A DNA stretch of 32,900 bases, from assembly GCA_024220525.1 (NCBI GenBank), contig JAMYWO010000066.1, positions 145,523 to 178,422 of the forward strand, read 5' to 3'. Under the pieces are notes generated by a model that worked only from the letters and a program-made list of their open reading frames with translations, ran no database searches and was not told the DNA's origin. Of the stretch, positions 1 through 27,835 are shown one piece after another. Positions within the stretch are counted from its first letter, which is position 1, and each line of letters opens with the position of its first letter. The position numbers were made by a program, and so were the translations under genes. This DNA comes from Cochliopodium minus. Taxonomy: Eukaryota; Discosea; Himatismenida; Cochliopodiidae.

Positions 1-3000
1 CCTGAGGAATATATTTCCAAATACATACAACTTTTCCATAATCATGATATCACTTATAATATTCTTTCAGATATTGATCATGATATATTGAAAGAGATGG
101 GAATAGATAAGATTGGTCACAGAATAAAAATTTTAAAAAATATCAGTGAAAAGTATCCATCCAAATTGGCAAATTTGGCTCCATCTATTGATCTGAATAT
201 TGAAAATAATATCAATGAAAAAGATCAAAACATAGCAATAGATATAACGGAAGATCCTAAAGATGTTCCAAAAATCATTGAATTTTTGGATAATACTTGC
301 AAAGTTTTTGAAATCAAAAAATATGTCAAAGAAAATATGAAAAAGGGAGCGAAAATCAAACCAAGGCCACATCAATGGGAAGCAGTTGTAAAAATTATAG
401 AAGATATGAAGAGTATTGTCAACATGAGGAATTATTTGATACAACATGGTAAAAATTAATCCTAATCTTCACTCTTCATTAATTTAATTCTTTTTAGCCG
501 CTGGATCAGGCAAAGCCATCACAATAGCCTCTTTGGCTCATAGTTTATGGAATTACAAGGTAAATTCGATGAACCAGATTGGATTTAATCAATTTATATC
601 AAATAATCTTTCCGAAGGAAAATGGCAAAGAGAAATTTCAATATATTATCGTTATAAGTGATAGAAAACAACTAGATGAACAATTGAGCAAAACAATAAT
701 TAATTTCTTTTCGAATCATGGAATAGAAGATGGATATATAAGAACCAAAAATTCCATGGATCTCAAGAATTTGATCAAAGAAAAACAATATAGAGTGATA
801 ATCACGACAATACAAAAATTCTCAAAACTTGCCAACAATGATATGAACAATATCTTTAGGGATCAAGTTGCACTTATTGCAGATGAAGCACACAGATCAC
901 ATGGAAGAGTTTTCACAAAGAGTTTGCACAGTAAAGAATTTTTTTTTGTTTCTTTCTTTTTCCAGGCCCAATTAAACATTGCAATTTTTAAATTAAAAGG
1001 TTTTTTGAGTGGAACATCAAGGCAGAGTTCTTTTATTACTTACTTTAGTTTCACAGCAACTCCCAACATTCCTACATTAAATCTTTTTGGTTTAGAAACG
1101 AAAAAGGACAAGATGGTTCCTTTTCATACTTTCACAATGAGAGAATCCATTTCCAAGGGATATACTTTGGACGTTTTAGCAAACTATATGAGTGTCACCA
1201 CGCAGATAGACTCAATAACACCTGTGTTGAATGATGTGGATCAAAACATGACAATAAAGGGAGGAATATCAGCTAAAAAGCATCTCCTCTCTTCCACAAT
1301 GAATTCGGAGGAAATAATTTTGAATAAAGCAGAGTACATTGTGAAACACCTTGTCTCTTTCTTGGAAGTCAAAAACAAAGAAAATCCTTTTAAGGGGAAG
1401 GCAATGTTGGTGGTAAAGTCTAAAAGGAATGTCGTGGTTTACAAAAAATTCATCGATGATCTGGTTAAAGAGCTCCCAAAAGAAGAGAAATTTGATGTTG
1501 TTTCTCTTTTCACCTCTTTTACTCGAGATGATACATTGTACAAAGAAGATGATCCGAATTTAAATGGAATTTACGCAAAATGCTTGCTTGATTCTATCAA
1601 TGATGAAAATAATAATCTCAAACTTATTATTGTTGCAGAGAAGCTTCAAACTGGTTTTGATCAACCTCTACTTCAGCTCATCTACGTCGATAAAATCTTG
1701 CACGGATCTAACGCTGTACAAACTCTTTGCCGCATAAATCGTCCTCATCCCAACAAATCCAAAATATTGGTTGTTGATTTCCACAACCAGCAAGAAAGTT
1801 TACAAAAGTATTTTTCTCACTACATGGACGAAACTTATTGTACCAAATACGACATCAAGAGTATCCAGGAGAGTCTTGCAAACTATTCCAACTTTTTACT
1901 TTCTCACTCTTTTATTGAGAACCAGTCTTTGGATGAAGCCGAAAACTATTTTTCCAATTTGTTCTATTCTGATAAAGACCCTTCTGTCATCACCATCAAG
2001 CACTTTGAGAAAATCCTCAAGAACTTCTTGGATGCCTCAAACAAAATTCTCTTCATCGACACCAAGCTTCCTGAAAGTTTTTTGAACAAAGTCCACAGGT
2101 TGATTTTGAAGATTAAAGGAGAAAAAGAGGTTCCATACAAAGAACTTATTGACAAGATCAAAATAACAACCGAATGTAAATATTTCTATTATTCTCAAAA
2201 GTATATTTTATTAAAGCATTTCTTCAGCCAATTTATTTGGTGATGATGTTGAATCTTTAAGGGTAGAAAAATACAAACCACATAGAAAGAACACATACAC
2301 CAAGAACCCTCATGCCCCTTCTTTTATTGATAGAGAAATGACCATTTCTCAAATCGTCAATTCTACATGTGAGTACATCAAAGAAACCCAAACGAAAATC
2401 AAAAAGAAGAATGACAAAAAGACCCAAAAAACAAAGGTGTTGCAACTAGACAAAAATATCAAATATGAAATCAACAAAAAGACCCAAAAAACAAAGGTGT
2501 TGCAACTAGACAAAACTAGTTCCACCACTAAAAACTCTACTGTCAATTTGAACGGCCTTAGGTATAATTTAACATCTTCTGTTGGTGAGGATGGTGGCGT
2601 GCCACTCGATATGAGAGATGACATTTTCCCGAAAGGTGATATAAAGAAAGAGAAAGATATCAACAAGAGGATAACCAACTTGATTCTTGACATTGACGGA
2701 TCTGCAGTTGAGGGAACCAACTCTAGCCTTTTTATTAGAGATGATGACAGTACTTATTCTGAATTTGAGGATGACAAGGTTTATCAAAAGTCTCCCGAGA
2801 TAACTATCCTCCAAAGCATAGACTTGTCCAATTACTTGAGCGAATTTTCAACTGTAAATTTAGATGATGAAAACAACAAAAACACCAAAAATAATGATAC
2901 ACCCATTTCCCTCTCTGACTTACTTTCTCAAATTGATAACTCACTAAACAAATCTTCAAATTCTACCTCCACTTCTCTGAAGAATAGTACAACTTCCAAA

Positions 3001-4320
3001 TCTTTGGATTTTATGCCTCAGATTGTCCCAAAGAAACAAAAGAATGACCAAAAGATCTTAAAGTTGATAGAAGATATTTATGTTGGTGTGAATAGGCTTA
3101 CCAATTTAAAGTCTCTTTATGTGATTTCCAATGACAATTCTAACATCAGCCTTCTGCAAGAGAAATCTATTCCCGCACTGGCTGACATTTTGAAAGACAA
3201 AGATGAGAACGTGGTCATTTTGGCTTGTTCAATCCTCAAGAAACTTGCAAATTCACGTAAACTCTTCTTTACGAAAAATTATTTTAAATAAAATTTTTTC
3301 TTCAGGGTTAATTGTCGAAAAAATGATACAAAACAAGGTTTTGGATATTCTCAAAGAAGAAGTCTCGATCATGGGATCTAGTGTTAGTTTTTCCAAAAAG
3401 AGTGAAGAAGTTTTTCTCTTGTACTCCAAGATCTTGCCCACTAGCAACCAATTTGGTTTTACCAAGGACTTTTTTTCATTGTGCCTCAACAAATTGATCA
3501 ACAATCAGAATAACGATGATTATGTAATTTTCTCTTCTTTAATAATTTAATTTCTCAAAATATTGTTTAATCATTAATCTTTACAAAAGATTCTCATCAT
3601 CATTGAAATCATCAACTCACTCTTGCAAGCATGCTCTGATCGCAACAGATTGGATGAAGTATGTTCATCTTTAACCGATAAACTTAACACCATTGTCAAC
3701 ATCTCCTCTTCCCTGCTTACCAGTTCGAATAATTCCAACGTGATCATTTGTATGGTCGAATTCATCAAAACAGTGTACAAAACGTTACGCAAAAAGAAAC
3801 TTGTTGCACCCAACAATAAGATCTCCATGGCCTTCAAGTTCCTCATCACCTACCGCAATAACAACAATTTTATGCAAAAACTCCTTGATATCACCAAGTT
3901 AAACCATTTTTTCCCTGCTGAAAAGGTTTTTGGGCAGACCAAATCTGCTGTCAACTCCCTCATGAGCCTCATCCCTCGTCAAGTATGCAGATTCACGATA
4001 ATGGGTCTTTTTTTTATTAAAAATATTTTTGTTAATTAATTATTTATTTTTGTTTTATAGGCAAAGAACACAACGAAATCAAGTGCAAGTTCTCTCACAA
4101 TTTCTGTACAAAGTGTTATGAAGAGTTTGAAAGCTTCAACTCCCACAAAAAAGTTTGCCCCAGTGTAATTAATGAAATTACTCCCACCAAGACCACCCCC
4201 AAAACTAAAACTACAACTAACATCAATTCTAATACTAAAACTAAAGACAAAAAACGAGTTTTAGAAAAAAAATCTGGAAAGCAGAACAAAAAGAAAGTTG
4301 TCAAAATTGAAAATAAATAA
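1..4320 (+). CDS. SAM domain / HsdR-like superfamily 2 helicase / armadillo-like / Cys-His finger protein (5' end outside window)
   Basis: Partial at the 5' end; about 1,300 residues are visible. Proposed exons: <1-448, 498-559, 633-930, 1000-2175, 2228-3256, 3306-3523, 3590-4004, 4061-4320, all in phase. Order: SAM domain (bases 1-160, ending with a GIDKIGHRIKIL motif); ATP-binding motif AAGSGKA (about 498-520); DEAH box in ADEAHRSHGR (about 880-910); FTATP (about 1050); QTLCRINRP motif VI (about 1720-1745); a helical C-terminal helicase extension; a charged low-complexity linker with an exact repeat; armadillo-like helices (3060-3950); and a finger with Cys/His spacing C-H-C-H-C-C-H-C (3985-4155). 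The helicase part most resembles the translocase of type I restriction R subunits and related EcoEI-type proteins. Spliceosomal introns show it is a resident eukaryotic gene. No nuclease domain is visible; one could lie upstream. The substrate is unknown. The 931-999 intron is inferred because removing it restores the family's LSG-(x)-RQ spacing before FTATP. Confidence 0.8.
2414..2515 (+). repeat. In-frame tandem duplication, 42-nt exact repeat at 60-nt period
   Basis: Bases 2414-2455 and 2474-2515 are identical. Both lie in the linker of the helicase gene and each encodes KKTQKTKVLQLDK in the same frame. The identity at the DNA level, including silent positions, points to a recent duplication or ongoing homogenisation. 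Confidence 0.9.
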
Positions 4321-8015: not shown

Positions 8016-11000
8016 ATGAGGCAGATTTTTCTTTTCTTTTCCTTTTTTCTGTTTGTTCATTCTTTTTCTAATTTTTATGCATTTTTGGATTCTAAAAATG
8101 GTATTGATCAAGGTCCATTTTCTTCTGATTTATCAATGTATGTAAAATAATCAAAAATAATTGATAATATTGAAAATATTATTTTATTAGAGCACCTATT
8201 TGGAAAACATTGCAATATTCACTTGATCAAATTCCAAATTTATCAAACACATCATCTTCCTTGGCTATCATCTATTTATATAATGGTTCTTTTTATTTGA
8301 ATCAAACAACCAATCTTATAAATGCCAATTTTCAATTGATTGCCAATACAACTAGAAGTGATGAATCAAAATTTTCTTCTCCAGATGTGTTTATTTCCGA
8401 AAATATAGGAGCCTATTTGAATATCTCAAAATCTTCCTCATTATCATTCAATGGGATACAATTTGAAAGGTTCAATTCAACCATCTCACCAATCATTATA
8501 AATAAATCAGAAAATATTCAATTCATAGGGTGTTCATTCATTAATAATACGAGCATAGATTTGTAAAATATTTTATTTTAAACATCTTAAATCTTTTATT
8601 CTTGTATTCTGAAAACAAAAGAGAAAATGCAACCTATACAGGATTTATAAATATAACAAATTCAAAAAATATAACCTTCTTCAATGTGAATCAAGAGAAC
8701 AATCTTTACCACAAGGGTAACATCTACATCTTTGCATCTCAAAACATCAATATTGAAAACTGCAACTTCTCATCGAACATAAACAAAGATGAAAACTACT
8801 ATGGAGGACCGCTGTTAGTTGTTGAGAACAGCACAAACACACAAATCGAGAATTGTTGGTTATATGAAAACGAGATATATGGGCGCTGTTTCTCTTTTAT
8901 CAATACTCCCAACATCTACTTTTCCAATGGTCATTTTTTTAACAATAGCATCGCTGGTGGGAACATTGTTTACTTATTCGACTGCCGCAATGCCACATTT
9001 GACAGCTTACAAGTGACAAATAACGATCTTTCATCTTACACAATTTACATTGAGAATTCTCCTCACTTTAATTTAAAAAATTTTAATATTTCGAACAACA
9101 GTTTCTCACAACATAGCGTCTATTTCAAAAACAGCGAGAATGCAAAGATCCAAAATGGGCTTTTCACTTTGAATGGTATCGAAGGAGTTGACTGTTTATA
9201 TTTCAGTTCATCTCCATTTTGCATCATTTCCGACATATCTTTTTACAGCAATAAAAAAAGTGGACCAAGTGTTTCTTTTTTCAATTCTCCCAATTTTTAT
9301 TTCTATGAGTCTTCTTTTTATGACTCTCCTACCCAAACAGGCAATTCTATTTATATTTTAAATTCCTCTAACTCCCTATTAGATTCCCTATCTTTCCACG
9401 AAATCACTTATAAAGGAGACAGCATTGATTTAACTTCTTCTTTGAACATGACTCTTTCTAACATTAGTTTTTACAACAATTTTTTCGATGGGTTTAGCAT
9501 TTGTGTGCGTGAGTCAAGTGGAATTAATCTATCCTATTTTTCTTTTTATTACAATATTCTCAGTGGATCCAATTTTCTCATTCATCAATCAACCAACACT
9601 TTTCTCTCCGACTCGATCATCTACAACAACATTTACAATGGAACCAGCTCTTTCCAAGGGAGTTATTCCATTTACTATTCTGATACTGTAACAATAACGA
9701 ATCACACCTTGTATAACAATCAGTACTTGGGTGATGGTGTTTCTATTTACTCTTCTGATAATTTTTCTTTTTCTTCTTCATCTTTTCAAACCTGCTCCTT
9801 TTACGAAGGAAATATTATTAATTCTCGACTTTCTTCTAATTTTTCTCTTTCTGATCTTTCTTTTACCAACAACACCTCCAATAACGGAGGTGTAGTTTCT
9901 CTTTCAAGATCTGATGACATATACCTCACAAACTTAACTTTTCTAAATAACGTCAACAACATCACCATTAAAAATGAAACTGTACAGTTAATTTCGGGGT
10001 ACATAACAATCACAAATTCTAAAGCAGCTGATCTCAAAAATTGTTTTTTCACATCAAATCAACAATCTATTTCTCTCACCTCATCCAAATTAGTAAATTC
10101 CTCCAACTCAATTATTTACTTTGAAAACACAACTTCTCTTATTTTTCAAAATCTTCTTTTTAACAAAAATATTAACAACAACTACATCTTGATCTCAAAT
10201 GTAGATCCAACCAACAATAATATCTTTGTCCAACAATATTCTTCCTCCTCAATATTTATAAATAATTTCCAGTCCTCTGATTTTTCTGGCTGTACTTTCT
10301 CCAACAACATAAACTCCAATTTGATACAGACTGATTGGTTAAACAGTTTGGCTTTCGAAAACATCGCTGTGTTTGGCTCAGGAGCATTACTGCAAAAAAA
10401 CTTTGGATCAACAAATATTTCGAACTCTCTTTTCCTCAATAATTCAAACAATAACAAATACATATCTCCAAAAACCTCAAATATTTATTTGAATTTTAAA
10501 GAAATGAGTGTTGATGCAATTCTCTTTGATACGTTGATTAATTATCAAGACTTTTCTCCTATTTATTTCGAGAGTCTCATCTTTTCGAACACCTCTCAGA
10601 TAATTAGCATAAACAACGTCCAAGGCCAAAACCTTTATTTCATTAACACTAATTTCTCAAATATCAACTCTTATCACTTTTTTAATTCTCCAGATTGCAT
10701 CAATAACTTTTTTTTTTATAAATGCAATTTTTTCAATTCAAATACTTCTATCTACTTCATAAATAGCATATCTAATTGCTCTTTCTTTGATAGTTTGTCA
10801 ATCAATTTAATGTTCAATCCCAATAATACCATCTCTAACAGTCTCTTTCACAATATTTCCAATTTGCATCTGTTTTCATCTGAGAGTATTTCTTCCTCTT
10901 TATTTACGAACATCTACAACTCTTTTTCTTTCAAAAATACTTCTTCAGTATTTATTGAAAACACATCTTTTCACTATAATCAACTCAACAGTGATCATGG

Positions 11001-14000
11001 AATCACCTTTAATTTAACTACTCTTCATTCAAACCAGCCCTCTCTTTTCATCAAAAACAGCTCTTTCATTTCTAATAAGAGTTTTAAAAAAGGAGGCAGT
11101 CTGTATATTTCTATTTATAACCCACAATCTGTCGTCCTAATAGAAAATTGCAACTTTGAGAATTCCTCTAGTTATCAAGGAGGTTTAAATTCAAGCATAT
11201 TTTTTTAATTTAATTCTTTTTAATTCAATTAGGATCTATTTATTTTGAGCTTCCTGTTTGGGTTGATCAAGACTACAAAATCACACAAATCTCAAATTGT
11301 ACATTCTTCAACTCAATATCGACAAGTTATGGAGGATCTATTTTTTTCGAAGATATCTCATCTCTGGGTTCAGCTAAAAGCAATATATCTTTAGATTTGA
11401 TTCAAAACAATTTTGAAAGGTGCCAATCACAAGCAGGAACCTTGTACCTTGATGGAGAAGTAAAAAACAAAACATCTCTTTCTCTCATTTTATCCAAAAA
11501 CAATTTTTCTGACAACGAAGCATCATACGGAGTAGATATTTCAACACCACCTTCCAATATAATCTCTCTCGACAATTCTCCCTTCATTTATCTCAACCAA
11601 CCCTTTTCCCTTTGCTTTGCTTTGACTGATTATTTCAACCAGACAATCATTTACAACACTACTGATTTCAAAGAACTTCCCTCCATGTTTCTTTCTCCTG
11701 GAATGTATAACGATCTCAATTTGTTTCAGTATCCTTATCAGATCCCTGTCTATTTCTCACCTCAAAACATTTCCTTCAATGACTTGCAACAATTCGGCTT
11801 CAAAAACAAAAATTATGGAATCGTGGCTAACTTGATCCAATCTTCTGATGGAATTGGAAAAAATATCAAAAACATTTCTACTCAAATCTTCGTGAAGCTG
11901 ATGGGATGTTCTCTAGGATACAGAATGTACTCTCAGTTTTCTTTGGAGAGTTGTATTGAGTGTAACTCAAACGAGTACTCATTTGATGGGATCAATTGCT
12001 TGGATTGCCCTTCTGATTCAGTTTGTGTTAACACTACAAAATCACAAGACACTGATATTAGCGAATATAAAATAGATCAAGGTTATTGGATGTTGCCATC
12101 TTTCATTAATGCGAGTGTCCTTATGCGCTGTCCTACTTTTACAAAGTGCTCCAACTTTAACTGTTTCAATAAATGGAACACTTCTTCTAATTCTACCTAT
12201 ACTTTTTGTTCGTCACTTAATCCTTCACATTGTGAAAGCAACAACGGATGCGGGTTGGTTTTTTCCTTTTAAAAAATTTTATTCTATTATATCAATTCTA
12301 AAATAAAATTAAAGTTTCTGTCAAGATGGTTACACAGGTGAAATTTATTGAATAGAAAAATTTTAATCTTTTACTGAAATTATCTTTCAAATAAAGGATT
12401 CCTTTGTAGTGATTGTTCTAATGGATACTTTAGGGATCCATCAAATGTTTGCCAAAAATGTGAAGATCACAAGTCAAAAGCCTTCATCATCATTATCTTT
12501 GTTGTCTGTCCCACCATTTTCATACTCTTGATCATTTCCCGAAATTCCTTCTTTCTTTTCCTTGTTCAAATCCTCTCCATTTTACTTTTTGCAGTGATTG
12601 GTTTGAAAGATATTGCACTAGAGATATTGTTGATGATATCTTTGCTAACTTTCATCTACAACAAAACAAGAGAAAAAGGAGGCAAGTCCCCATCTTCTGG
12701 AAGCTCGATCAAAATTTTCATCTACCACCTCCAAACAACTGCCCTCCTTGTATCTACCATTGTATGGCCACAAGAGTTTGAAGATATCCTGGATTACATC
12801 AACATCATCGACATTAATGTGCAAGGTATCGAATGTTTCGTCAACAAATCATCTTCGTACGAAATCATCAAATTTTTGGTGAAAATGTTTCTTCCTATCG
12901 CTTTGGTTGTCTCTTTGGTAGTCATTATTTTTCTCCAACATTTGCTTTCTCCTTGCTTGCAATCACTCTTTCTTAGAATTTTTAAGAACAAAATGTCAGT
13001 CGAAAAAGAAATGAAACCCAGCCTTATTTTCTTCCAAGATGATGACGAGAAAATTATTTCAAACTATTCTGTTAATGAAAACATTGACGGAGAAGAAGAA
13101 AGCAAGGAAGATGAAGAACAAGAGGAAAACCAAGATGTGAGGATGTATTTGAAAGTGAAATGGAAGATCATTTCATTGAACATTTTTCTTTTCATCATCT
13201 ACATTTCTCATTTTGAACTTTCCAAGTATATCTTTGAATTTTTCAACTGTGGATCTCAAAACGTCAATATCAACGGAAAATCCCCACATTACCTCATCAC
13301 TATGCCCTGGATTTTGTGCGATTCAAAACAGTATTATTCTCTGAGAATTTCTGCCATCATCTTTCTGTTTGTTTACGTCTTCGGCATCCCCCTTTTGTTC
13401 GGTTATTTGCTCTTTTCCAAAAAGAGAGGTATCTCTAATGACGAACCAATAGAATGGTTAGACTTTTATTTTTATAACTACAAAGTGGAATTCTTTTGGT
13501 ATGAACTCGTAAGAAAAAAATTTGTTTCAAATCCTTTTTTTCTTAATAATTTTTTTTTAAATACAAAGATTTGGATGCTGAGGAGAACTATCATTGCCTA
13601 TCTATTTTATCAATTCCCTACTAACATCCAAATCCAAAGAATCTCTATCATTTTTGTGATTTTGCTCTTTGTTGTCCTCAGTCAAGTTTTGAGACCCTTC
13701 AAGTCAAAAAGTGGGAATGTTTTAGACATGATCAGCTCCTTCATCATCATTCTCACCTACATTCTCCCAAATGTCGAAAACAAGCCAGGAATCGCTCTTT
13801 CCTTTTTTATCTTTTTCGCAAATTTCATTTTTGTGGTTGTTCTTATCTTTTTCTTTTTTGAAGATTCGATCATCTCTTTCTTTAAGAACAAAAAATACAC
13901 CAAAATTTTTTGCTGTTGTAAAAAAAAAGAGGATGATTATAACTCTTTGTTATTTGAAAATGATGACAACGATCCTAACAGATTTAATCTTAACAAAAAG

Positions 14001-14183
14001 AATGATGATTCTAACAAACTCGTTGAACTGGAAAAGCTTTGCAAGGAGCAGTTGAGGCAAAACAATGAACAAGAGAAACTGATGATAGAGCTCATTGAGA
14101 GGGATAAACAAAAAGAGAAAAAGATTAATGAGCAAGATTTAATTTTAAAAAAGTTGGCAGAAAAAGTTTTTCAAGATAATTGA
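8016..14183 (+). CDS. Giant secreted beta-helix ectodomain fused to a polytopic membrane domain
   Basis: 1,941 residues. Exons: 8016-8137, 8191-8562, 8622-11182, 11233-12253, 12315-12337 (23 nt), 12397-13508, 13569-14183; the sum is 5,826 nt. A signal peptide (MRQIFLFFSFFLFVHSFS) precedes about 1,250 residues of short Asn/Ser-rich repeats with periodic Phe and Cys (NCxF..N, N.SxxxF), typical of a right-handed parallel beta-helix and dense in N-glycosylation sequons. A Cys-rich neck follows (11910-12470) with ECNSNEYSFDGINCLDCP, FCQDGYTG, FLCSDCSNGYF and CQKCED. From about 12480 there are roughly nine hydrophobic helices, an acidic cytosolic loop (13030-13135), a PLLFGYLLFSKKR motif, and a coiled-coil tail (13960-14180). 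The architecture resembles uncharacterised protist and algal membrane proteins with Pmp-like ectodomains. Ligand and transport role are unknown. The 60-nt segment 13509-13568 is a stop-free intron; removing it brings FFWYEL next to IWMLRRT. Confidence 0.85.
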
Positions 14184-14278: not shown

Positions 14279-16060
14279 ATGAATTTTTTTAAGAAGAAAG
14301 ACAAAAAAGACAAGAAAGATAAGAAAGAGGAAAAAGTAGAGGTTATTAATGAGAAGAGATTGAAGAGTATTCAAGATGGAAAAGTGAAGAAATTGTTGGT
14401 TATTGGTAGCCCTTCCAATAATTGGAGAAAAATCTTTGATGATGTAGAATTGGAGAATGATCATGTGATTGAGACTTATCAATCCGAATGGCATGAATTA
14501 GAAGTATCAGTGTAAAAAAAAATTTATCAAAGGAAATGATTAAATTTTTAAAAAATGTATAATAATACCTTCATATTATACTCTAGATATCTAGGTGGTA
14601 AAATCTTTCCAAAAAAAAAAAAATTAATTTTTTATATTTATTAATTTATTAATTTATTAATTTATTAATTTATTAATTTATTAATTTGATAACAAAAGGT
14701 ATTGGGGCTCAAGTTTTCATCAAGCCCAACAAAATCCACCCACAAGGAGCACAATTTACACCAGATTTCATATTGATAAGAAAATTGGTGAGAGGATACG
14801 ACAAAAAAGACGATTACAGAAACATACTCTACGGTTTTATGGTAAATTTATTTTTTACATTAAAAACAAAATATTAAAGCGACAAATTATAAAGGTCGCT
14901 GGTATTCCTGCAGTTAATAGTGTTCACAGCGTTTACAGTAAAAAAATAATATCCAAAATCGTTTTAGTTTTGAAAAAATTAATTTTACAAAAGTGTGCCT
15001 CGATAGGTAAATTTTATTTATTTTATTTATCAAATTTATTTTATTTATTTTATTCATCAAATTTACTTATCAAATTTATTTTATTAATCAAATTTATTTT
15101 TGTTATTAAAGACCTGCTTTGATTGGGGCACTTTACCAACTAAAAAAGAAACATGGAGAGAAGTTCCCTTTCATGGACATTTCTTATTACAGCTCCTTCA
15201 AAGTTTTGAGGTTCCCTGGTGACTTTCCTCTCGTTTTGGTAAAAAAAATTAAAAAAATTAAAAAAAATTAAAATATTTTTAAATTTATTTTAGAAATGTT
15301 CACACGCTGAAGCAGGATATGGGAAAATGAAAATAGATAATCAGCAACAGTTTGAAGACTGTAGGTCTTTGATTGCTTTGAACTCTGACTACTGCACCAC
15401 CGAGACTTTTGTTCCAAAAGAATATGATTTGCGTATCCAAAAAATAGGAAATCACTACAGAGCCTACAAAGTAATTATTAAAAATATATAAATACTTGGA
15501 TTATTCAAATTTTATTTTATTTTAAATTAAATTATTTTAAATTACTTTTAAAATTATTTTTTAAATTATTTAATCACATTTTTCAATTCTTTTAAAAAGA
15601 GACAAAGTAATAATTGGAAAACCAATGTTGGCTCTTCCATTTTGACAGAGATAGAAATGAATGACACTTTTAAGTTTTGGGCTGACGAAGGTAAAATAAA
15701 AAAAAAAAACTGCTGAAAATAAAAAAATCCTAAAAAAAAAATTTATTAGCTTCAAAGTTATTTGATGGAATGGACGTAATGCTTTATTTAATTTTTTCCA
15801 TTTTATTATTTAATTTTTTTTTTTTTAAATATAAAAAAGATTCTTACTGTGGATGCCATGTTTCACGATGGAAAATATTATATCATAGAAATTAATGATA
15901 CTGCTTCTGGATTACACAAAGACAACGTAATCCCTTTTTTTTTTCTTGGAATTCTTTATTTTTTTTAATTGTTTCAAAAAAATTTTAGGAGGAAGTCGAT
16001 ATGCAACACATCAAAGAGCTTGTTGTTGATGGAATTAAAATACTTCCACAGAAAAAATAA
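14279..16060 (+). CDS. Synapsin homologue (ATP-grasp fold)
   Basis: 339 residues in 11 exons: 14279-14511, 14587-14594 (8 nt), 14699-14841, 14895-14937, 14994-15006 (13 nt), 15112-15238, 15294-15470, 15600-15690, 15750-15775, 15840-15926, 15989-16060 (sum 1,020 nt). After a Lys/Asp tail (KKKDKKDKKDKK) comes the synapsin core: KKLLVIGSPSNNWRKIF, TPDFILIRK, AGIPAVNSVHSVYMCLDRP, FPLVLKCSHAEAGYGKMKI, YDLRIQKIGNHYRAYK, SNNWKTNVGSS, YYIIEINDTASG. From memory, animal synapsins read PDFVLIRQ, AGIPSVNSLHSVYNF.DKP, YPVVVKMGHAHSGMGKVKV, YDVRVQKIGQNYKAYM, NWKTNTGS and HIIEVVGSSMP. Synapsins bind ATP through domain C and synaptic-vesicle surfaces; here the vesicle-binding domain A, the Pro-rich linker and domain E are absent. 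It could instead be an ATP-dependent ligase of the same fold. Fit to synapsin is strong; its cell role is unknown. Confidence 0.92.
14639..14688. repeat. Intronic minisatellite, 8-nt unit TTAATTTA
   Basis: About six uninterrupted copies, inside synapsin intron 2 (14595-14698), between the 8-nt exon and exon 3. Confidence 0.9.
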
Positions 16061-25124: not shown

Positions 25125-27835
25125 ATGGACAAAAATATCAAAGAAAAGAATGATAACAAAGAAGAGAATGGAAATAAAGAAGAAGAAAAGAATTTAAATT
25201 TCTTGAAATTCATCTCTGAGAATGATCCTATATTATTCAGAACAAAATTGGGAATCTTAAAAATGGTAAATAAAATTAATTGGGTTATATAATTTATTAT
25301 ATAACATTCATTTCTTTTTTATTGCAAATCCAACAAATTTTAAAGGAAATAGAGAATTCAAATCAAAAAAAGACAAAGTTGATTGAAACAGGGAAAAAGT
25401 TTCGCTCAGCATTAAAAGAATTATCTGTAATATCTTCAACATTCAAAGATGATTTATTGATGTATAGCAATGATCAAAAAAATAAAGAAAGATCGGAAAT
25501 CTTTAATAGTATGGATAATAAATTGAGTGAAAAAATAAAGAAGGAGATGGAAGAATTATTCGAATTTTCTTGCCCATTCAAACAATTTTCTTTAATCTTC
25601 GATTCTATATCACATTCATTGGATTCACTTGAAAGAATGTTCGATCATCTTTTTGTTGTTCCTTTGGAGAAGTTGGATACATCAAATCAAGAATTAAAAG
25701 ATATAGAACAGAGATTAAATGAATGGAGGATAGATTATGAAAAAGCCAATCAACAATACAGACAACTTCTTGATAAAGGAAAGACCAATGAAAAATCTGA
25801 ACAATCCGTGATAAAATTGAAAGATAAATTCAAGGGGATAAATGCTACTTGGATGATTTTGCTTTCTGATACCTATTTCTCCAATTATATGCAAATTGTG
25901 GAACAATGTTTATTAATCACCCTATCCACTTACAAATCATTCAAAAGTAACAAAAATTTTTCTTACATAAAAGATATTGTCGATATACTTTCTTATTTAT
26001 CAAATTATATCATCAACATATTTCAACATTGATCAAAAAAATTAAAATAAGAAATCATTTGTAAATCAAAAACCAAGCTTTTTTGAGTATTAAATTTATC
26101 CTCAAAAAATGATATGTCATGATTCTTTTAATTAATCACTCTTTTGCCCTAGATTTCTCTTTTTTATCGAATAATGAAGAATTTAGCGAAACATCAAAGA
26201 AATTGAAAATAGAAATATCGGAAATCCTTTTTAAATTCCAAAAGGAAAAAAATTTGAGAAAAAAAAAGTTGATTCAAATCAATACTGCAATCGAATCTGA
26301 AAAAGAGGATTCTAAAACACAAGGAGACATTTTTTTTTGCGAAACAAACATAAAGGGTGAGATAATAGGGAAATGGACTGGTAAGATACAAAACTTTTTT
26401 TATTTTTATATTAAAATTAAAACGTAAAATTACTTTTCAAAAAGAGGGATACATGGTTGTATCAAGAGGAAATCTAGTTTTTTATGAAAGCTACATGAAC
26501 ATGAAGCCCATCTATTTTTTGGATCTTCTACTCTTCTCACTGAAGCCAGCCACCGACTCAGAGTTCAAGTATTCCATCATGTTAGTCTGCCCTACAAAGT
26601 CGCTTATGGTGGGGTTGTTCGACAAAGAAACACAAAAGAGTTGGATAGACGCAATAACAAGGGAGATCTCAAATCAACTCGACAACAAATACAAATACGA
26701 AGAGGGAGAATCAAAAGAGAACTTGGCAGAGTTGCCCATTTACAAAGTCAAAGAAGGAATAAGCGGAAATAATTTTTGTGCGGATTGTGGAAATAAAGAT
26801 CCTACTTGGGCTTCTGTCAATTTGGGAATCATCATTTGTATCGAATGTTCTGGTGTTCATAGAAGTTTGGGTGTTCACATTTCTCAGGTCAGAAGCTTGA
26901 CTTTGGATACCACCATTTGGGACAGCACCATGATTCGTTTGCACCGTGCAATTGGAAATGAAAACTCAAACAAGTTTTGGGAGGCTAAACTTCCTCAATC
27001 AAACACCAAGAAAATCAATTCTCAATCTTCAAAGACGGAGAGGACTGCTTTTATCAAAGATAAATACGAAAAGAGACTTTTTCTTTCGGATGACGTGATT
27101 GACCCAAAGAATCTCGATACTCTATTTTACAAAACTTTTGTTAGCTCTCTTCCTTCTTTTGAGCTTTATCAAGATCAAATAGGAAGTTTTCAGATTTTAC
27201 CTTTTCAAATTCTCCACATGCTTTTTTCTGGTGCTCATGTCGATTCAAAAGACCCTCTCACTTGTCAAACACTCCTTCATCATCTCTCAAAAACCAAACA
27301 CGTGTTAATCGCAGAGTTATTGATAAGAAATGGTGCAGATGTAAATATTTGTGATAAAAACGGTTTGACACCTCTCCTTATTGCCACTCATTCTTCGAAT
27401 GAAGAGTTTTCTAATTTTCTGTTGTCCAGAGGAGCCAAAGAAAACGTCGTAAATACAAATGTTGTCATTAACACGAACAACACAAACATTTTTGTGGATA
27501 ATAACGAGTCTTGGGTTACTGCTGTAAAGAATGCTCCCACAAAATTTGCCAAACCCATCATCTTTGGAACTAAAAAGAAGAAAGGATCACATATAGAGGG
27601 CTCACATGATGATGTAAAAGAAGATGGTAATCAAGAAGAATCAAAAAGTGATTCCGTTGAACACAATGAGAATATTCCTGAACCCACTACCCTTCCTGAA
27701 GTTGTAAAGTTTATTCCTCCCAAAAAGGTTGTGAAGGTCCCTTACAAGGTGAAGGTTAACAAAAATGCAACTGGATTACTTCCGATAAAAGTCAAAAACT
27801 TTAATCCTAAAACTCCCCAAAATCCTCAAAATTGA
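25125..27835 (+). CDS. ACAP-type ArfGAP: BAR, PH, ArfGAP, ankyrin repeats
   Basis: 786 residues; exons 25125-25265, 25346-25946, 26153-26380, 26445-27835 (2,361 nt). These proteins sense curved membranes through BAR, bind phosphoinositides through PH and switch off Arf GTPases. The BAR region (about 30-260) is helical: [39 protein letters not shown]-type helices and NYMQIVEQC. The PH domain (about 315-405) has [20 protein letters not shown] and ends with the invariant Trp in [10 protein letters not shown]. The ArfGAP zinc site is CADC (Cys435/438) and CIEC (Cys455/458), with x16 spacing, and the catalytic arginine in GVHRSLGVH (Arg463). Ankyrin units: [13 protein letters not shown] and [20 protein letters not shown]. 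The tail is basic and Pro-rich with no SH3. Domain order equals animal ACAPs, and all catalytic positions are intact. Exon 3 to PH spacing is inferred from phase. Confidence 0.93.

Follow-up and report, generated by a model that had tools for sequence, protein, structure and literature searches.

A protist synapsin gene with an enzyme-type metal site and homologues in two Asgard archaea

The DNA analysed here, hereafter the window, is a stretch of 32,900 nucleotides from Cochliopodium minus, the genome assembly of which comprises 44.65 Mb in 598 contigs. A synapsin gene is situated on its forward strand, flanked on one side by a gene that includes a beta-helix part and on the other by a SURF1 gene, and has the following structure:

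14279..16060, + strand: synapsin gene, ATG to stop, 11 exons, 340 residues (spliced translation, spliced alignment)
14279..14511, + strand: exon 1, Lys-rich N-terminus and start of the Synapsin N-domain (PF02078, residues 34-135)
14587..14597, + strand: exon 2, an 11-nt microexon (splice model, spliced alignment)
14699..14841, + strand: exon 3, N-domain (splice model)
14895..14937, + strand: exon 4, AGIPAVNSVHSVY (splice model)
14994..15006, + strand: exon 5, a 13-nt microexon (splice model, spliced alignment)
15112..15238, + strand: exon 6 (splice model)
15294..15470, + strand: exon 7, ATP-binding K191 and E227, LRIQKIG motif (splice model, residue alignment)
15600..15690, + strand: exon 8, loop over ATP, SNNWKTNVGSS, with W255, K256 and N258 (splice model, residue alignment)
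15750..15775, + strand: exon 9 (splice model)
15840..15926, + strand: exon 10, triad D293 (15852-15854), E305 (15888-15890) and N307 (15894-15896) (residue alignment)
15989..16060, + strand: exon 11 and stop (splice model)

All ten introns have the form GTA..AG and measure 53-129 bp. The internal splice sites were reproduced by a spliced-alignment script run with the synapsin profile, which gave the gene a score of 600, where the reverse strand and three shuffled sequences reached 26-29. A previous, sequence-only reading had described a 339-residue protein covering the synapsin core; the gene and the core are borne out, and the four motifs that it quoted are all present in the spliced translation, but the 11-exon model gives a length of 340 residues. 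GC content at the gene is 0.24-0.26, within a range of 0.18-0.35 across steps of the window. Three other features of the window deserve mention. A frame resembling the R subunit of type I restriction enzymes (573-2243, + strand; SWI2_SNF2 6.7e-17, T1R_D3-like 1.3e-11) lies on this eukaryotic contig and is possibly of bacterial origin; a Beta_helix frame (5.8e-13) followed by frames with hydrophobic stretches (8548-14183, + strand) is perhaps a single large membrane protein gene; and a frame at 26369-27835 (+ strand) combines ArfGAP (ArfGap 8.8e-40) with ankyrin.

To judge from its sequence, the gene is a bona fide C-domain-only synapsin of a protist. Both Pfam domains exceed their curated cut-offs, Synapsin_C (PF02750) with 6.3e-50 and 170 bits against 22.5 (residues 137-331), and the N-domain (PF02078) with 3.2e-16 and 59.9 bits against 23 (residues 34-135). 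A search of the PDB at E <= 1 returned four distinct sequences, all of them synapsin I, II or III (2e-66 to 3e-62), and identity to synapsin I is 39%. In a phylogenetic tree, the window protein grouped with the synapsins, and a split with 100/100 support separated nine synapsins (seven eukaryotic, two Asgard) from five or two other Asgard ATP-grasp proteins. The sequence-only reading had proposed these Pfam and tree comparisons, naming as grounds for abandoning its view a closer fit to a different ATP-grasp family, such as RimK or glutathione synthetase, or a position inside animal sequences that would indicate contamination. There are weak secondary matches to RimK and CofF, but RimK reaches 18.9 bits in Pfam (0.0013; cut-off 21) compared with 170 for Synapsin_C, the general ATP-grasp match stands at 0.17, and no other ATP-grasp family in Pfam, the PDB or NCBIfam fits better than synapsin. 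The protein falls outside the mammalian clade, its gene lies in AT-rich, intron-bearing DNA with GC as low as its surroundings, and three diverged paralogues reside in the same genome. Given these scores, the tree split and the paralogues, membership of another ATP-grasp family and animal contamination are ruled out, with a vanishingly small chance of either.

These three further synapsin-like genes are found on contigs C118, C10 and C287, and the genome accordingly carries, as predicted from sequence, at least four synapsin-like genes. The spliced models are approximate, that of C118 most of all, and score 483-609, where reverse strands and shuffled sequences give 23-30; Synapsin_C reaches 177 bits in C287, 122 in C10 and 117 in C118 (8e-34 to 5e-52). 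The N-domain exceeds its cut-off in C287 and C118 and is slightly under it in C10, the model of which misses the first part of the gene; frames resembling a synapsin N-terminus lie upstream, outside that model. The C118 model has no ATP loop, which was either lost or lies in an exon that the model overlooked. The paralogues are 35-39% identical to the window protein, and intron position and phase are common to the window gene (C66) and C10 in one instance and to C118 and C287 in another, the others being different. Upstream of the C118 paralogue, on the reverse strand at about 1790-3330, are frames resembling a G-protein alpha subunit (L004, read from the frames).

Pfam matches fill residues 34-331 of 340, which leaves no room for domains A and E, situated before and after domain C in animal synapsins; neither was found, as the sequence-only reading had maintained. 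Domain A of animals contains a phosphorylated site of the R-x-x-S type. A minimal motif of this form, R27-L-K-S30 (14357-14368, + strand), directly precedes domain C here and may be due to chance. That the synapsin core is older than neurons and that A and E came later, as had been inferred from this DNA, is upheld, neither ground for doubt having materialised. The inference is supported but not new, since Candiani et al. 2010 (PMC2825198) already describe synapsins consisting of domain C alone in Naegleria gruberi and Entamoeba histolytica. In the scenario proposed there, protozoans already had C, E arose in basal metazoans, and the combination of A, C and E dates from protostomes; no synapsin was found in Monosiga, Trichoplax or a sponge. 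Among 13 eukaryotic species surveyed in 2021, comprising animals, their unicellular relatives and fungi, synapsin is reported from animals only (PMC7934909). As a protist synapsin, therefore, the window gene adds one more case to a type published in 2010; the Asgard homologues and the metal-triad contrast, which go beyond the 2010 proposal, are the findings that merit further work.

Of the synapsin I positions scored at the ATP site (K225, K269, E305 and the loop 330-343), the set is present by residue alignment, K269, E305, W335, K336 and N338 being retained as K191, E227, W255, K256 and N258, while K225, which adjoins the site, corresponds to R148. In synapsin I, Ca2+ is coordinated by E373 and E386, according to one study (PMC9678998). 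These residues align with D293, an acidic replacement, and E305, so that both putative Ca2+ ligands are acidic in the window protein, and position 388 aligns with N307; synapsins II and III have lysine at the position of D293. The metal ligands of active ATP-grasp ligases are D, E and N, in the pattern D-E-x-N, and the window protein carries this triad of carboxylate-amine ligases as D293, E305 and N307. It is complete in all four host genes, in both Asgard synapsins described below and in 5/5 other aligned Asgard ATP-grasp proteins (L018 left out), and in none of the three mammalian synapsins (E-E-V, K-E-M and K-E-M for I to III), the only animal sequences compared at the triad. Thus, where the window protein has D, E and N, mammals have E or K, then E, then V or M, and only the glutamate is kept.

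With a modest lean in its favour, we read the window protein as a putative ATP-grasp carboxylate-amine ligase, of the ancestral type from which animal synapsins would have become ATP- and Ca-sensing pseudoenzymes. Such a protein would bind metal-ATP in the manner of ATP-grasp ligases, activate a carboxylate as an acyl phosphate and then couple it with an amine. Among enzyme families, the alpha-L-glutamate ligases CofF, LysX and RimK come closest in sequence. Animal synapsins would derive from an enzyme of this sort through loss of two of the three ligands, as the mammalian sequences suggest, and may have retained ATP and Ca binding for oligomerisation and vesicle clustering. In favour of the ligase we count the Pfam and PDB matches, the three paralogues, the triad pattern, the alignment of Ca2+ ligands, the CofF and LysX models and an Asgard protein, L014. 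Against it stand R148 in place of K225, the C118 model that lacks the ATP loop, and weak scores: the nearest NCBIfam models, CofF (1.8e-9, 37.1 of 300 bits) and LysX (1.2e-5, 24.6 of 275.6 bits), are far below their cut-offs, so that with RimK also under its own in Pfam the protein belongs to none of these families by score, and the 3vpb chain gives a weak profile match (E 0.22). The E-values of L014 are similar for synapsin I (3e-10), the 3vpb chain (7e-9) and RimK (1e-8), so that it links the synapsin and ligase families.

Intact metal ligands alone are no proof of catalysis. The protein could have been, already in protists, a non-catalytic scaffold responsive to ATP and Ca, which binds ATP, oligomerises and tethers vesicles or membranes, the triad merely holding the metal of ATP. 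The 37-39% identity to mammalian synapsins, the conserved ATP residues and loop and the acidic D293 and E305 all accord with such a role, and the Lys-rich N-terminus could contact membranes; but D293 and N307 agree with active ligases and not with mammalian synapsins, and the same protein occurs in two prokaryotes that have no known vesicle cycle of this kind. We consider the scaffold less likely than the ligase.

Homologues in prokaryotes were sought in two ways. A scan of prokaryote contigs with a single strict motif gave nine stretches and one relative, in the Heimdallarchaeota MAG JAOUKW010000014.1 (G001); it missed a second genome, G158, and says nothing on absence from other prokaryotes. 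A Synapsin_C search of 227 Asgard genomes produced eight with E <= 0.001, of which two have a strong match over the whole domain (G001, 224.5 bits; G158, 177.5 bits), four a weaker match over the cut-off (23.7-39.5 bits) and two a match under it; none of 14 control genomes matched. Among the weaker matches are L014 and L015 (39.5 and 35.3 bits), ATP-grasp proteins that stand between synapsin and RimK/LysX and are possibly a sister family of synapsin. G001 and G158 belong to different orders. In that of G158, 35 of 79 genomes match the profile, strongly in G158 only (412 bits; others 21-36), and in that of G001 three of 35 match (366, 77 and 22 bits). Two pattern scans of viral contigs (125 and 55 matches) contained no relative, nor did the scans of phages and plasmids, and carriage by any of the three was set aside. 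Our literature search, mostly judged by title and with thin coverage of subscription journals, found no report of an Asgard or archaeal synapsin.

The G158 gene is an intronless frame of 296 residues within a 15-kb contig; its product exceeds the cut-offs of both Pfam synapsin domains (176.4 and 25.2 bits) and is matched best in the PDB by synapsins (E about 5e-53), while a single-sequence structure model of it was too poor to use (mean pLDDT 31.8). The G001 gene is split: its C-terminal 217 residues open contig C589, and a 73-codon frame, with 60 codons matching the N-domain, closes contig C280, so that the gene runs across a break between contigs. Over 212 residues, 50% of positions in the G001 protein are identical to synapsin II. 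Both genomes are fragmented, and the contig end that cuts the G001 gene might be expected if eukaryotic DNA had been misbinned into archaeal MAGs. The genes have no introns, however, and Pfam families were identified in 8/10 neighbouring genes tested: sulfatase, TPP enzyme, D-Ala-D-Ala-ligase-like, PIN and Roadblock/LC7 in G158, and PAS/histidine kinase, GNAT and penicillin amidase in G001. The GC content of the G158 contig (0.615) fits ten other sampled contigs of its bin (0.58-0.64). On the lack of introns, the prokaryote-type neighbours and this GC fit we rejected misbinning, which is very improbable. A protein closely related to eukaryotic actin (265 bits; E 2e-82) is also encoded in the G158 genome. 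The D-Ala-D-Ala-ligase-like ATP-grasp gene of G158 (L020, 10028-11155, - strand; 1.8e-14) lies about 2.3 kb from the synapsin gene and is a possible functional partner.

The tree, in which eukaryotes are represented by the four host genes and mammalian synapsins, unites the Asgard pair with support of 97/97 to 99/97 and the mammals with 100/100, and leaves the order of lineages without resolution. (L018 was kept out of tree and residue table since its frame as read is short; L044 and the weak order-level matches, G034 excepted, were not read.) Topology tests rejected none of three arrangements: eukaryotes as one clade (p 0.347), the Asgard proteins with the window gene (p 0.359), or the four host genes as one clade (p 0.268). 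The best tree places Asgard and mammalian sequences on one side of a branch, without support (49/22).

These results bear on the direction of the Asgard link. Synapsin could be a eukaryotic invention that the archaea acquired by transfer from a eukaryote, in which case their copies would be uninformative on its origin, and we judge this a substantial possibility, a little short of an even chance. Patchiness suits transfer, strong matches being confined to 2/227 Asgard genomes, and both the unrejected clade of Asgard proteins with the window gene and the 49/22 branch are compatible with it. On the other hand, the Asgard pair are 52% identical and grouped despite their different orders; the genes lack introns amid prokaryote-type genes; related triad-bearing ATP-grasp proteins are present in Asgards; and the G001 protein is about equally distant from mammals (45-50%) and the four host genes (36-47%), which argues against recent transfer from either. 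Another possibility is that synapsin is an enzyme family older than eukaryotes. It would have existed in Asgard archaea as an ATP-grasp ligase with its full catalytic equipment, reached eukaryotes through descent or an early transfer, expanded in protists such as this one and, in animals, been converted to a pseudoenzyme that clusters synaptic vesicles. We advance this full sequence of events tentatively, and with clearly less than even confidence.

The enzyme-type metal site in relatives from two Asgard archaea suggests an enzymatic beginning for synapsin well before nerves arose, and the intact triad and the Asgard homologues sharpen the former inference that it first served elsewhere than at synapses. 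The fold of synapsin is that of an enzyme and, to our knowledge, no reaction is known for it. With complete-triad synapsins in a protist and in Asgard archaea, the ancestral role of the ATP-grasp domain becomes testable on small soluble proteins. If these are ligases, a hallmark protein of the synapse would be a retired enzyme that kept its ATP site for regulation, and the synapsin gene would join the set common to Asgard archaea and eukaryotes.

Among known systems, the synapsins of Naegleria and Entamoeba resemble the window protein in being protist proteins with a single synapsin C domain, as described in PMC2825198. Mammalian synapsins I, II and III (1auv/1pk8, 1i7l and 2p0a) are 37-39% identical to it over 296-301 residues and share the ATP lysine, the ATP glutamate and the WKxN loop, but unlike it possess further domains. 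CofF, LysX and RimK, the alpha-L-glutamate ligases, are likewise ATP-grasp proteins, and three RimK-like Asgard proteins share D-E-x-N with the window protein at an identity of only 18-20%. The Asgard synapsins are intronless, in contrast to the 11 exons of the window gene; both have the full triad in common with the window protein, to which the G001 protein is 45% identical over 215 residues and the G158 protein 37% over 289.
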